Positions 29,291 to 47,442 of a stretch of 64,000 nucleotides of DNA are shown piece after piece (the stretch's first letter is position 1; every line of letters starts with the position of its first letter). The stretch is taken from the NCBI RefSeq assembly GCF_900100665.1, contig NZ_FNCS01000006.1:62001-126000 (forward strand). Direction: 5' to 3'. Under the pieces are notes generated by a model, which saw only the letters and a list, made by a program, of their open reading frames with translations, was not told where the DNA came from and ran no database searches. This DNA is from Pelagibacterium luteolum. Its GTDB lineage: Bacteria; Pseudomonadota; Alphaproteobacteria; Rhizobiales; Devosiaceae. The position numbers were made by a program, and so were the translations under genes.

Positions 29291-30805
29291 CTAAAATTCC
29301 TCGATCCGGATCAATTGCGGCAGCCCCACGATGAACCCGTCATTGGCGATCCGCTCAAGCGCCTCACGCACCGCGCTCTCTATCGTCTCATGGGTAATCA
29401 GCACCACGGTGCGCGAGGTTTCCTCCTCCACCCCCGGCTCGGTCGCCCGCAGATCGGGCCGCTGGATCACGCTTTCGAGCGAGATATTGCCCTCGCCCAT
29501 GCGCGTCGCAATCGCCGCCAAAGCGCCGGGAACATCCCTTGCGTTCAGCCTTATATAATAGCCACCTTCATGAATGCGCATCGGCGCACGTGTGCAGGGC
29601 GCGAGCTCCGAGCTCGGCACCCCGAGCGGCGGCACCTGCGTGCCACGCGCAATGTCGAGAATGTCCGAGAGCACCGAAGCCGCCGTCGCCTCGCCACCGG
29701 CACCTGGCCCCGCCAGCAGCAATTCCTGCACGTGGTTGGTTTCCAGCGCCACGGCGTTCAATACCCCGTCCACTCCCGCAATGGCGCTCGATTTGCGCAC
29801 CAGCGTCGGATGCACCCGCTGCTCGATGCCGCTCTCGACCTTGCGGGCCATGCCCAGCAGCTTGATCTTGTAGCCCAGATCGGCAGCGACCTTGATGTCG
29901 GCCTGCGTGATCCGCGAAATTCCCTCGACGAACACCTGATCGGCGGCGATTTCCGTCTCGAAGCACAGGCTCGAAAGGATCGCCAGCTTGTGTGCTGTAT
30001 CGAACCCTTCGACGTCGAATGTGGGATCGGCCTCGGCATAGCCCAGCGCCTGCGCATCTTTCAGGCACTCGTCGAACCCGATGCCCTCATTGCCCATGCG
30101 GGTGAGGATGTAATTGCACGTCCCGTTCATGATGCCGTAGACGCGCGTGATCGCGGCGGACCCCAGCCCCTCGCGCAGTGTCTTGATGACCGGGATCCCC
30201 CCGGCCACTGCCGCCTCGAAGCCCAATTGCGCATGCGAGGCCTCGGCCATCTTGGCCAGAGTCACCCCATGGCGCGCCAGCAACGCCTTATTGGCCGTAA
30301 CCACCGGGCAGCCATTTTCCAGCGCCGCCGTGACCGATGCCAGCGCCGGCCCGTCCTCACCGCCGATCAGCTCGACATAGAGATCGATATCGCCCGACTT
30401 GGCCAGCGCCACCGGATCGTCGAACCATTTGAACCCCGAAATATCGACACCCCGATCGCGCGAGCGCGACCGCGCCGACACCGCAGAAACCACGATCTCG
30501 CGACCCATCTTACGGGCAATCGCGTCGCCATCTTCGGTGAGAATGCGGATGAGCGCCGCGCCAACCGTCCCAAGTCCGGCAATGCCGATGCGCAGGGGCC
30601 GGAGCTTTTCGGCCTCGGTGCTCTCATAGGCGATCATCGCCTTGCCGATCCGCTGGCGCGTCTCCGTGCGCGGTTCGCGACCCTCGCGCAGATCGAAAAC
30701 GAAAAGCGGGTCACCGGCGATCTCGCGCCCGAACCGGGTGGGGGTCCATCCGCGTTCGGCGATGAAGGATTCAACTGAGGATTTGAAGGTTTCGATGTCG
30801 CTCAT
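29291..30805 (-). CDS. hom: homoserine dehydrogenase with N-terminal HTH-like extension
   Basis: The 504-residue product reduces aspartate semialdehyde to homoserine in threonine and methionine synthesis. The catalytic part starts near residue 70 with RIGIAGLGTVG (nucleotide site), then TANKALLARHG, GIMNGTCNYILTRM and the substrate block YAEADPTFDVEGFDTAHKL; a C-terminal ACT domain (GALAAIATRMGEGNISLESV) allows feedback control. It is about 70 residues longer than the usual enzyme because of an N-terminal domain (FIAERGWTPTRFGREIAGDP, FVFDLREGREPR) that resembles small stand-alone HTH-like proteins of alphaproteobacteria. An internal ATG at 30637 could give a shorter form. A 12-bp hairpin includes the start codon. 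Confidence 0.9.
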   Translation of the reverse strand: MSDIETFKSSVESFIAERGWTPTRFGREIAGDPLFVFDLREGREPRTETRQRIGKAMIAYESTEAEKLRPLRIGIAGLGTVGAALIRILTEDGDAIARKMGREIVVSAVSARSRSRDRGVDISGFKWFDDPVALAKSGDIDLYVELIGGEDGPALASVTAALENGCPVVTANKALLARHGVTLAKMAEASHAQLGFEAAVAGGIPVIKTLREGLGSAAITRVYGIMNGTCNYILTRMGNEGIGFDECLKDAQALGYAEADPTFDVEGFDTAHKLAILSSLCFETEIAADQVFVEGISRITQADIKVAADLGYKIKLLGMARKVESGIEQRVHPTLVRKSSAIAGVDGVLNAVALETNHVQELLLAGPGAGGEATAASVLSDILDIARGTQVPPLGVPSSELAPCTRAPMRIHEGGYYIRLNARDVPGALAAIATRMGEGNISLESVIQRPDLRATEPGVEEETSRTVVLITHETIESAVREALERIANDGFIVGLPQLIRIEEF

Positions 30806-30836
30806 GGCCGTCGCACTTTTGAGTTGCGACGGCCAT
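30804..30836 (-). promoter_or_regulatory. hairpin including the hom start codon
   Basis: ATGGCCGTCGCA (30804-30815) and TGCGACGGCCAT (30825-30836) form a perfect 12-bp stem with a 9-base loop. In the hom mRNA the 3' arm ends within the AUG start codon, and no clear ribosome site is present beside it. This could limit initiation. Confidence 0.55.
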
Positions 30837-30965
30837 CAATAGGAATTTGCCTATAGGGTCAAGACCAGCGAGCCACAAAATCGGGATCTGACGCGTCGAT
30901 CACGCGCACAATCTCCGATCTCGCACCATATATGCGGGGTCGTGCGAGGCGTTGAAGGCGGTTGC

Positions 30966-32180
30966 CTATGGCTTGGCCAGAGGCACCACATTGCCGTTCG
31001 ACGCAGTACCGCCAAGGAACTTTTTGATCGCCCGCGCCGCCTGCCGGATGCGCTGTTCGTTCTCGACGAATGCCAGCCGCACATATTGGTCGCCATACTC
31101 GCCGAAGCCCACACCGGGAGCCACGGCCACGCCGGTCTCCCTGATCAAAAGCTTAGCAAATTCAAGGCTTCCGAGGTCGGCAAACTGGTCTGGGATCGGC
31201 GCCCAGGCAAACATCGTCGCAGCCGGCACGGGGATTTTCCACCCTGCCCGCCCGAAGCTTTCGACCATCACATCGCGGCGATGCTTGTAGATGTTGCGGG
31301 CTTCCTCGATGCAGGAATCATCGCCGTTCAAAGCCGATGTCGCGGCCACCTGAATGGGGGTAAACGCACCATAGTCGAGATAGGACTTCACCCGCGCCAA
31401 AGCAGCGATAAGCCGTTCATTTCCAACGGCGAATCCCATGCGCCAACCCGGCATCGAGAAGGTTTTCGACATGGATGTGAACTCAACCGACACGTCCATC
31501 GCCCCCGGAACTTCGAGGATCGAGTGCGGCGGTTCATCGTCGAAATAGATTTCGGAATAGGCAAGGTCCGACAGGATGAAGATTTCATGCTTCCGGCAAT
31601 AGTCGACCACTTCCTTGTAAAAATCGAGCGTCGCCACGTAAGCGGTCGGGTTTGCCGGATAATTGAGGATCAAAGCGATCGGCTTGGGGATCGAATGGCG
31701 CACCGCGCGATCGAGCGAGCGCAGAAAGTCCTCATTGGGGTCGGCAGGCATTGAGCGGACCACGCCGCCGCTCATGATAAAGCCAAAGGAATGAATGGGA
31801 TAGGTCGGGTTAGGTACCAGCACCACATCGCCCGGCGCGGTGATCGCCTGGGCCATATTGGCAAAGCCTTCCTTGGACCCGAGGGTCGCCACGACCTGCG
31901 TATTGGGATCGAGTTTCACCCCGAAACGCCGACCGTAATAGGACGCCTGCGCCTTGCGGAGACCGGGAATGCCACGTGACGTGGAATAGCGGTGCGTGCG
32001 CGGATCCTTGACGGTTTCCTTAAGCTTTTCAACGATGTGGCTTGGGGTGGGAAGATCGGGATTGCCCATACCTAGGTCGATGATATCGACCCCCGAAGCG
32101 CGCGCCTTGGCTTTGATCGGGTTGATGTGCTCGAACACATAAGGCGGCAGGCGGCGGATGCGATGGAATTCTTCGCTCAT
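30966..32180 (-). CDS. class I/II aminotransferase (AlaC-like)
   Basis: The 404-residue product is a PLP-dependent fold type I aminotransferase. DLGMGNPDLPTPSHIVEKL is the N-terminal substrate block, and SMSKTFSMPGWRMGFAVGN carries the PLP-binding lysine and the following arginine. YPANPTAYVA and ILSDLAYSEIYFD are also conserved. Its relatives act on alanine/pyruvate or related amino acids; the position upstream of hom suggests a link to aspartate-family or branched-chain amino acids, but the substrate is inferred. The ATG at 32180 follows CGAGGA. Confidence 0.87.
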   Translation of the reverse strand: MSEEFHRIRRLPPYVFEHINPIKAKARASGVDIIDLGMGNPDLPTPSHIVEKLKETVKDPRTHRYSTSRGIPGLRKAQASYYGRRFGVKLDPNTQVVATLGSKEGFANMAQAITAPGDVVLVPNPTYPIHSFGFIMSGGVVRSMPADPNEDFLRSLDRAVRHSIPKPIALILNYPANPTAYVATLDFYKEVVDYCRKHEIFILSDLAYSEIYFDDEPPHSILEVPGAMDVSVEFTSMSKTFSMPGWRMGFAVGNERLIAALARVKSYLDYGAFTPIQVAATSALNGDDSCIEEARNIYKHRRDVMVESFGRAGWKIPVPAATMFAWAPIPDQFADLGSLEFAKLLIRETGVAVAPGVGFGEYGDQYVRLAFVENEQRIRQAARAIKKFLGGTASNGNVVPLAKP

Positions 32181-46165: not shown

Positions 46166-47442
46166 CGGTCTCGTCGCCCGGACTTGTTGGCCGGGACCGC
46201 CCCGAACTGGGGCGGGCATTTATCGCGGGCGTACTGCGCAAGGCGCTGCCTGTGATCGTGGCACTTTGGGTGTTTTCGGGTGGCTTCGTCATCGTCGAGC
46301 CCTCCCCTTACGAGGTCATGTTTCTCGCAGCGTTCGGGCTGGCACTGATCGGCGGCTTGCGCCTGAGCCGGGGCACCTTGCCCGTGCTCTACGTGACATT
46401 GGCGTTCACGCCCTTCGCCATAATCGCAGTGTTCCAGATGCGCTATCAGTCTGTCACCGATGGGCTGATCTACAATCTCGTTACGATCTTTCTGTTCGTG
46501 ACAACCTATTTTGCGGCTAATTTCGTGGCGCAGGCGCCGTATCGCCACATGCGGCTCATCGCGCATTCCTATGTGGTGGTCGCGATCATCGCGTCCTGCG
46601 TCGGTACTCTCGCTTATCTGGGCTTGTTGCCGGGTGAAGGCGTTTTCCTCCTTTACGGCCGCGCCAAGGCATTCTTCAAGGACCCGAACGTTTATGGGCC
46701 CTTCCTGATGCTTCCAGCAATGTTCGTGCTTCAGCGGGCATTGTTGGGGCAAGGCAAGAGCGTCGCATGGAATGGTCTGGCGTATCTCGTGATCTTCATT
46801 GGGGTCTTTGTAAGCTTTTCGCGCGGCGCGTGGGGACATTTGGCCGCCTCGTCGGCCATGCTGTTCTTCCTTATCTTTTTCCTCGAATCTTCGGGACGGG
46901 ACAAAGTTCGGCTGTTGTTGTTCGCGGTTGGCGGTACGATGGTACTGGCGGCCGCACTGGCCGCCCTGCTCTCGATCCCGGCTGTGGCTGATTTGTTCGT
47001 GCATCGCTTCTCGCTCACGCAGAGCTATGACACCGGCGAAACCGGGCGCTTTGGGCGGATTTGGTACACGATCGAGGTGGCGCTGCTCAATCCACTCGGT
47101 ATTGGCCCACTGGAATACGGCTACATGCGGATCGAAGAGCAGCCCCATAACACCTATCTCAACGTCCCCCTCTCCTACGGATGGGGCGGTGCGTTGGCGT
47201 ATTATTCACTTGTGGTCTGGACGACGGTCGTGGGACTTACATGCTTGGCGCGCCGCTCGGTCAACCGGACACTCCTCATACCGGTCTTTGCGACGTTTTT
47301 GCCGATGCTGATCCTGTCAGGCATCATCGATACCGACCACTGGCGTCACTGGTTCCTGGTGGCAGGATTGGTATGGGGCGTGTGCGCCGGCTACCGGGTC
47401 GTGGATCCGGCGCAATTGAGACTGCGCCGGTCCCTGCCCTAA
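46162..47442 (+). CDS. Wzy/O-antigen ligase-type membrane protein
   Basis: The 426-residue product has about eleven membrane helices and the O-antigen ligase/polymerase (Wzy_C) pattern, with the large periplasmic loop containing GETGRFGRIWYTIEVALLNP and QPHNTYLNVPLSYGWGGALA. The likely role is polymerisation of the repeat units on the periplasmic side. The start is the TTG in the overlap TTGA with the upstream stop; the frame continues upstream but inside the sugar-transferase gene. No flippase gene is beside it. Confidence 0.84.
   Translation: MTVSSPGLVGRDRPELGRAFIAGVLRKALPVIVALWVFSGGFVIVEPSPYEVMFLAAFGLALIGGLRLSRGTLPVLYVTLAFTPFAIIAVFQMRYQSVTDGLIYNLVTIFLFVTTYFAANFVAQAPYRHMRLIAHSYVVVAIIASCVGTLAYLGLLPGEGVFLLYGRAKAFFKDPNVYGPFLMLPAMFVLQRALLGQGKSVAWNGLAYLVIFIGVFVSFSRGAWGHLAASSAMLFFLIFFLESSGRDKVRLLLFAVGGTMVLAAALAALLSIPAVADLFVHRFSLTQSYDTGETGRFGRIWYTIEVALLNPLGIGPLEYGYMRIEEQPHNTYLNVPLSYGWGGALAYYSLVVWTTVVGLTCLARRSVNRTLLIPVFATFLPMLILSGIIDTDHWRHWFLVAGLVWGVCAGYRVVDPAQLRLRRSLP

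Follow-up and report, generated by a model that had tools for sequence, protein, structure and literature searches.

Does a homoserine dehydrogenase (Hom) that carries about 70 residues before its RIGIAGLG motif, as read from the open reading frame, also control its own gene? This question was addressed for the hom gene in the window, a term used here for the whole stretch of DNA that was analysed (64,000 nucleotides of Pelagibacterium luteolum, contig NZ_FNCS01000006.1 of assembly GCF_900100665.1, positions 62,001 to 126,000 of the forward strand; coordinates below are those of the window). Homoserine dehydrogenase catalyses the step at which carbon is committed to threonine and methionine. 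A preliminary description, made without database searches, had claimed that the extra residues are in frame with the enzyme with no stop between the two parts, that they resemble small stand-alone helix-turn-helix (HTH)-like proteins of alphaproteobacteria, and that the fusion may be a trigger enzyme. It had proposed comparing the extension with protein families and listing the hom genes of the Devosiaceae that carry it, and had named relatives with a stop between the two parts as refuting evidence. In the window, hom lies between open reading frames which we take to be an aminotransferase gene and a glpX-like gene. The gene and the parts of its product are as follows.

29291..30805, minus strand: 504-residue open reading frame of Hom (504 codons, ATG at 30805)
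30611..30805, minus strand: Cro/C1-type HTH domain, residues 1-65, assigned from conservation and predicted fold; predicted helices at residues 3-18, 22-30, 35-41 and 47-65
30599..30634, minus strand: variable linker, residues 58-69, mean pairwise identity 27.5%; the last predicted helix extends into it
30218..30577, minus strand: NAD-binding domain (NAD_binding_3), residues 77-196, PF03447, E=4e-11
29657..30193, minus strand: catalytic domain (Homoserine_dh), residues 205-383, PF00742, E=6.7e-63
29345..29560, minus strand: ACT domain, a possible amino-acid sensor, residues 416-487, PF01842, E=1.6e-07

With the NAD-binding, catalytic and ACT domains all present, the protein qualifies as a homoserine dehydrogenase, and the NCBIfam model PRK06349 covers residues 69-503 (5.2e-157). 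PF00742 was matched once in the whole genome, which corresponds to a single homoserine dehydrogenase; that this is the sole hom of the genome argues for enzyme activity of the fused protein, which is thereby inferred. The search of the genome revealed no second significant copy of the extension.

The extension is restricted in its distribution and conserved as protein. A scan of bacterial genomes yielded at least 80 hom loci. Of the 80 that were retained, 28 match the query from residue 1, and their titles name Pelagibacterium, Devosia, Maritalea, or unnamed Hyphomicrobiales or Alphaproteobacteria metagenome-assembled genomes. The other 52 do not match from residue 1; hom begins shortly before the LRIG motif in most of them, and none of the 52 gave a hit to the domain in a motif search. 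The extension is present in 126 of the 136 genomes of the Devosiaceae, a family found in soil and in the sea (116 of the 119 of good quality), and none of these 126 matches contains a stop codon. The claim of about 70 in-frame residues without a stop between the two parts therefore held, and no relative of the refuting kind was seen among the 126 matches. When the window and the 28 loci were compared, the mean identity was 79.7% for residues 1-57 as compared to 79.9% for the enzyme core, and 27.5% for the 12-residue linker, while the differences in the domain fell mostly at the third codon position (0.18/0.11/0.51 for the three positions). The extension comprises an in-frame domain, about 57 residues long, and a variable linker; both the in-frame fusion and purifying selection on the fused domain are shown computationally. 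Chance or an assembly artefact was considered as an explanation and rejected on the basis of the family-wide, stop-free extension and its core-level conservation.

Of the 10 Devosiaceae genomes without a match to the extension, hom was found in five. Four of these hom genes, all from one genus, truly have no domain, and only the C-terminal part of the fifth was seen; we read this as a loss of the fused domain in one genus (four genomes). As a separate observation, a contig labelled Bacillus subtilis SK6B4 (L043) carries a hom with the N-terminus MSNA followed directly by LRIGVAGLG, the same as in Pseudochrobactrum (L032), and this record is likely mislabelled or contaminated.

The sequence-family databases gave little information about the extension. 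The first 70 or so residues had no match in Pfam and no plausible one in NCBIfam, and the PHROG match was weak (phrog_4779, transcriptional regulator, E=0.066); membership in a curated HTH sequence family is thus not met. A distant stand-alone relative of the domain matches phrog_7669, of unknown function, with E=3.4e-8, and a search of PDB sequences gave a best E of 0.12. Alignments of 12 of the 29 Devosiaceae sequences (A1), of 16 hand-picked rows (A2), and of 16 of the 29 Devosiaceae sequences plus 14 phage proteins (A3) were prepared. AlphaFold2 with a 30-sequence alignment predicted four helices with a pLDDT of 87 for the domain; the single-sequence model of full-length Hom was uninformative (pLDDT 37). 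The 50 highest-ranked Foldseek matches include DdrO, ClgR, C.Esp1396I, HipB, SinR and P22 c2 on operator DNA, and most of the listed matches are Cro/C1-type HTH proteins, as judged by title. The best-ranked chains of DdrO, ClgR, C.Esp1396I, HipB and the P22 c2-operator complex had Foldseek probabilities of 0.94-0.99 and TM scores of 0.59-0.69, and no Foldseek E-value was significant (0.2 and worse; none reaches 0.001). VIA-align gave Z scores of up to 7.7 for POU domains and 6.9 for ClgR; it also listed the epoxidase HppE (Z about 6), the N-terminal helical part of which aligns with the model. By model prediction, and without a significant Foldseek E-value, residues 1-65 meet the four-to-five-helix fold criterion for a Cro/C1-type HTH. 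This fold prediction is a computational result, and it supports the earlier claim of an HTH-like domain. The most conserved positions of the domain include those in the predicted recognition helix and before it.

A palindrome of the form TAGG-N6-CCTA is located upstream of hom. The features in this region are listed below.

30857..30862, minus strand: -35-like TTGACC, just upstream of the operator, read from the sequence
30840..30853, minus strand: predicted operator TAGGCAAATTCCTA, a TAGG-N6-CCTA palindrome whose 5' end is 48 nt before the ATG
30806..30834, minus strand: leader hairpin directly before the ATG, with 10-bp arms at 30825-30834 and 30806-30815; -24.2 kcal/mol, z -5.1

The window holds this one TAGG-N6-CCTA site alone, with 0.12 expected. 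Most hom promoters in the Devosiaceae read CCTATTGAC-N3-TAGG-N6-CCTA, and an exact palindrome was identified within 200 nt, at 27-82 nt from the ATG, in 28 of the 29 domain-bearing hom loci (the exception being L024) and near none of the 52 domain-free ones. One-mismatch sites occur near four of these 52, at up to 200 nt before or after the match start. In total, the 579,917 bases of these loci hold 28 exact sites, of which 27 are at hom; the other lies 3.4 kb away from a hom without the domain (L071). TAGG and CCTA at other spacings (0-12) were found in none of the 29 domain-bearing loci. An outer half-site (CCTA-N8-TAGG) is present in 25 of the 29; it is absent from the promoter in the window, where the full scan pattern is not matched. 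Another 20 fetched regions from domain-bearing Devosiaceae, which share some genomes with the 29-locus set, contain 15 exact sites and 17 with at most one mismatch; the non-exact ones have one (G105, G001), two (G003, G008) or three (G111) mismatches. The association between domain and palindrome is shown computationally.

Across the 4.3-Mb genome of P. luteolum there are seven exact palindromes as compared to 69 for the pattern read backwards, and in our judgement the hom site is the sole one of the seven to lie in a promoter of this type, a pair of sites on contig C47 not having been included in the judging. That pair (G000:C47:46364-46377 and 46562-46575; L167 and L168) consists of two more TAGG-N6-CCTA sites 198 bp apart. 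Within the genus in which four genomes have hom without the domain, the four domain-free hom promoters keep TTGACC, and the palindrome is found in none of the four (2-3 mismatches at best). Of three domain-bearing congeners, one has an exact site and two have a site with 2 mismatches, and the latter two indicate that site and domain are only partly coupled in that genus.

A promoter scan found no sigma-70 consensus pair in 30780-31000, which suggests that the -10 element is weak or of another type; the hom promoter is therefore inferred from TTGAC and from the phage parallels described below. Judging from the sequence alone, the operator would take up the spacer of this promoter, an arrangement shared with the phage relatives. 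No Rfam match to a riboswitch or known RNA was obtained in 30600-31200 at E<=1. Among seven leaders that were folded, the hairpins of L003, L005 and L009 also have z -3.1 or lower, with a similar position and a different sequence, and in L002, L012 and L029 the hairpin does not stand out. It is possible that the leader hairpin provides a second layer of translational control.

We also asked where else the domain occurs. Profile searches recovered it from at least 34 of 297 genomes of the order (15 of them Devosiaceae), and from at least 46 of 387 and at least 35 of 289 class genomes; the order and class samples are subsets, and the tallies are lower bounds because only the best 16-22 candidates per genome were scored. 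The domain was found as a stand-alone protein, in tandem before another HTH-like segment (by reading), and fused to enzymes, namely CysD, CoaBC, fumarase (FumC) and a methyltransferase-like protein; the clipped loci L136 and L153 were left out of the fusion reading. In one genus it is present in 28 of 37 genomes at cysD, and domain and CysD were read in one frame in 27 of the 28 (in this set L315 departs from the CysD frame, L307 does so midway and L292 is cut). All 28 fused cysD genes have an operator within 150 nt, 14 exact and 14 with one mismatch, a count that leaves out row L321, misplaced on a clipped contig. None of the five unfused cysD genes of the same genus has one (best 3 mismatches), and four further genomes gave no cysD match. 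Since near-misses also arise by chance, as at the four domain-free hom genes mentioned above, the 14 cysD sites with one mismatch carry less weight than the exact ones.

Two fusions whose enzyme part was confirmed as CoaBC were identified in different genera, with an exact site 24 nt before the ATG in one (L354) and a site with one mismatch in the other (L353). Another CysD fusion occurs in other alphaproteobacterial families (L342, L347) with a diverged domain of the SRKLLNDGK type; in L342, TGGGAAGTTTCCCA lies 30 nt ahead of the matched start, and L347 has one mismatch at best. This group is separated from the first CysD group in the tree (split 100/97), and at least two separate fusions to CysD are thus probable. 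The site at the fumC fusion is TAGG-N6-CCCT, with two mismatches, and TGGG-N6-CCCA is located upstream of three of the ten methyltransferase-like fusions.

Some side observations concern these proteins. The methyltransferase-like partner is uncharacterised (FRFFDNRQKYLLFV...DAGMGDGTVL; by reading, in L137, L138, L144, L149, L151, L156, L357 and L358), and L137 gave no Pfam hit. In L142, L147, L148, L155 and L159 the domain was read as tandem copies with an excisionase/MerR-like HTH behind them. By eye, residue 38 is Asp or Gln with TAGG and Arg with TGGG in many rows, which we do not claim as a code.

The stand-alone copies connect the domain to phages. When viral contigs were scanned with the Devosia-type hom operator, the query being DNA alone, 10 contigs matched, and all 10 encode a stand-alone copy of the domain. 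Nine encode it in the fetched stretch (58-78 bits) and the tenth (L171) on the same contig (L180), about 0.8 kb from the same two sites. With a looser operator pattern, 14 of 42 stretches contain the domain, as compared to none of 73 for the backwards control pattern (best 12 bits). As this phage set was chosen by the operator, operator counts in it are circular; the domain counts are not. In 13 of the 14 domain-bearing stretches the operator starts 26-46 nt before the ATG of the small gene. The seven layouts that were read are lambda-like, with the small gene and another gene diverging from the operator and more operators beyond that other gene. Of the six divergent genes that were tested, five from phages and one from a prophage, five match Peptidase_S24 and phage repressor PHROGs, and the remaining one (L176, 112 residues) had no Pfam hit; the divergent gene in a Bradyrhizobium plasmid record is annotated as an S24 peptidase. 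In the layouts and genes tested, the small genes thus fit the definition of a phage Cro, whose small gene points away from that of a CI-like repressor and shares operators with it, and this Cro position is shown computationally. In L192 and L200 sites were found beside a CI-like gene with no domain detected, and CI may bind the same sites in phages. A tblastn search with one phage copy against 50,697 annotated phages gave no match, and two plasmid records match the domain of the window. These stand-alone relatives in genomes and phages support the earlier claim of kinship to small alphaproteobacterial proteins.

The chromosomal stand-alone copy most similar to that of Hom is L116 (L361:8959-9174), which lies in a prophage-like region with a divergent S24 gene and operators at both ends. 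The tree was built from 11 of the 29 hom, 6 of the 28 cysD and 12 of the 14 phage rows over 68 columns, and many of its forks are unresolved. L116 falls inside the hom clade next to Pelagibacterium, and the direction of transfer is therefore not settled; the phage may have acquired its copy from the host, or the placement may be a long-branch effect.

We also searched for inverted repeats with no half-site assumed, using arms of 4 or 5 bp and varied spacing, and compared the counts to those in shuffled sequences. The sets included 27 of the 28 cysD loci (L312, which is clipped, was left out) and 31 hand-picked diverse loci without clipped loci, near-duplicates and most tandem-domain loci. For hom, the most frequent spacing with 4-bp arms was 6, in 29 of 29 loci (shuffled mean 14.1), and this spacing was also highest in the diverse set (27 of 31; shuffled 13.8, sd 2.5). 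With 5-bp arms at spacing 6, repeats were found in 17 of 31 diverse loci (shuffled 4.9) and 15 of 27 cysD loci (shuffled 3.4). The cysD loci had no peak at 6 with 4-bp arms (22 of 27 at spacing 5, 19 of 27 at spacing 6). The domain-free hom control was raised at spacing 6 (29 of 52 with 4-bp arms, shuffled 22.2; 18 of 52 with 5-bp arms, shuffled 7.3), within a broad rise and with no peak there.

A phage-like domain together with a matching DNA switch makes it likely that Hom would control its own gene. In the mechanism that we propose, a cassette of promoter, operator and cro-like reading frame would have been captured from a temperate phage early in the Devosiaceae, giving one chain in which a putative phage-derived, Cro-like DNA-binding domain is joined by a short linker to a complete homoserine dehydrogenase, ACT domain included. 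The Cro-like domain would bind TAGG-N6-CCTA in the hom promoter spacer. Homoserine dehydrogenases are oligomers and could supply the dimer; the enzyme's own oligomer would bring two domains together as a DNA-binding pair. The bound dimer, just downstream of the -35-like TTGAC, should block RNA polymerase and thereby transcription, so that Hom would limit its own amount by negative autoregulation, like Cro in a phage. A ligand such as threonine, acting at the ACT or the catalytic domain, may possibly tune the binding. Similar captures would have occurred independently at cysD, coaBC, fumC and the methyltransferase-like gene. DNA binding, repression, the dimer argument, the direction of transfer and ligand control are all inferred. 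We consider the account as a whole, a captured Cro-like repressor and operator with autorepression by Hom, to be likely, in the absence of binding or expression data. A bolder reading is that phage immunity switches are recurrent raw material for metabolic control in alphaproteobacteria, with in-frame captures before hom, cysD (at least twice), coaBC, fumC and the methyltransferase-like gene yielding enzymes that count themselves at their own promoters, and with the oligomeric or ACT-ligand state of Hom gating the repressor; we put this forward tentatively and would lean slightly against it at present.

Other explanations were weighed against autorepression. Another protein, such as a CI-like regulator of the host or a prophage, might bind the operator, the fused domain being a relic or structural. 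CI and Cro usually share operators, and the operators beside the CI-like genes in L192 and L200, where no Cro-like gene was detected, are compatible with this view. However, the site tracks the domain and not the gene, being found at fused hom, cysD and coaBC but not at the 52 domain-free hom or the five domain-free cysD genes. Furthermore, P. luteolum has no second significant copy of the domain (CI-like genes were outside that search), and the conservation in and before the predicted recognition helix speaks against this view. We regard this alternative as unlikely. Less likely still is that the palindrome is a mere promoter feature and the domain a module for oligomerisation or protein interaction. 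There is no direct evidence of DNA binding by the domain, and HppE, which is not known to bind DNA, appears in the structure list, but the same palindrome recurs at unrelated promoters, including phage early promoters, that have the domain alone in common.

It could also be argued that translation starts at Met57 or later, with the upstream frame encoding a separate short product or lying outside mature Hom. The internal ATG at 30637 corresponds to Met57, which is Met in 28 of 29 loci (Ile in L021) and is preceded by a Shine-Dalgarno-like AAGG in 23 of 29, and the linker behind it is variable. Yet a mere 2 nt separate this AAGG from the ATG, less than a normal Shine-Dalgarno sequence requires, and the presence of the AAGG is explained by the Lys-Ala codons of which it is part; a start at Met57 is not well supported. 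The lack of a separating stop in all 126 matches, the core-like conservation of the domain and the placement of the operator relative to the first ATG also contradict this explanation, which we consider very unlikely. Autorepression by a fused, Cro-like domain remains the preferred reading.

The earlier suggestion of a trigger enzyme is thus supported by the joint occurrence of domain and palindromic operator, both at hom and elsewhere, without binding data, and the link to threonine and methionine was not shown. The link to phage Cro proteins, the operator and the parallel fusions go beyond the preliminary description, and the operator and the phage link make the Hom fusion a strong, testable case. 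If true, it would provide a concrete route to the control of an enzyme gene, in which a ready-made phage promoter and repressor become fused to the enzyme. It would also add a domain family that has no Pfam model, with a readable operator code of TAGG or TGGG half-sites and a 6-bp spacer, and self-regulation would be predicted for unremarkably annotated enzymes of threonine/methionine, sulfur, CoA and TCA metabolism. In the literature searched (titles and abstract openings), a fusion of this kind was not described; the nearest topic there was that of XRE factors common to Caulobacter and phage phiCbK (PMC10688885).

We compared the Hom fusion to known systems. Residues 69-503 match the monofunctional ACT-type homoserine dehydrogenases (PRK06349/NF004976), but most of the 52 other hom genes start directly before LRIG and none has the domain. 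The lambdoid Cro and the 434 and P22 repressors are likewise small, all-helical HTH proteins (here by prediction). The phage relatives of the domain occupy the Cro position opposite a CI-like gene in the layouts read, with operators at the promoter of the small gene and beyond the CI-like gene. The geometry of the 434 operator is 4-6-4, a 14-bp palindrome, which matches that of the hom palindrome. Unlike these repressors, the Hom domain is fused to an enzyme and matched no Pfam or NCBIfam model, and the half-site here is TAGG (or TGGG).

PutA, BirA and NadR are trigger enzymes with a fused DNA-binding domain. Two criteria for such an enzyme are met in Hom: enzyme and DNA-binding domain are in one chain, with the HTH assigned by predicted fold, and a cognate operator is located at the target gene, by association and without binding data. 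To our knowledge, no ligand coupling has been described for the Hom fusion, which differs from PutA, BirA and NadR in this respect. Like these proteins, Hom combines a metabolic enzyme with a DNA-binding domain and is predicted to control its own gene, but its domain and operator seem to be derived from phage immunity regions and to have been recruited repeatedly by unrelated enzymes.
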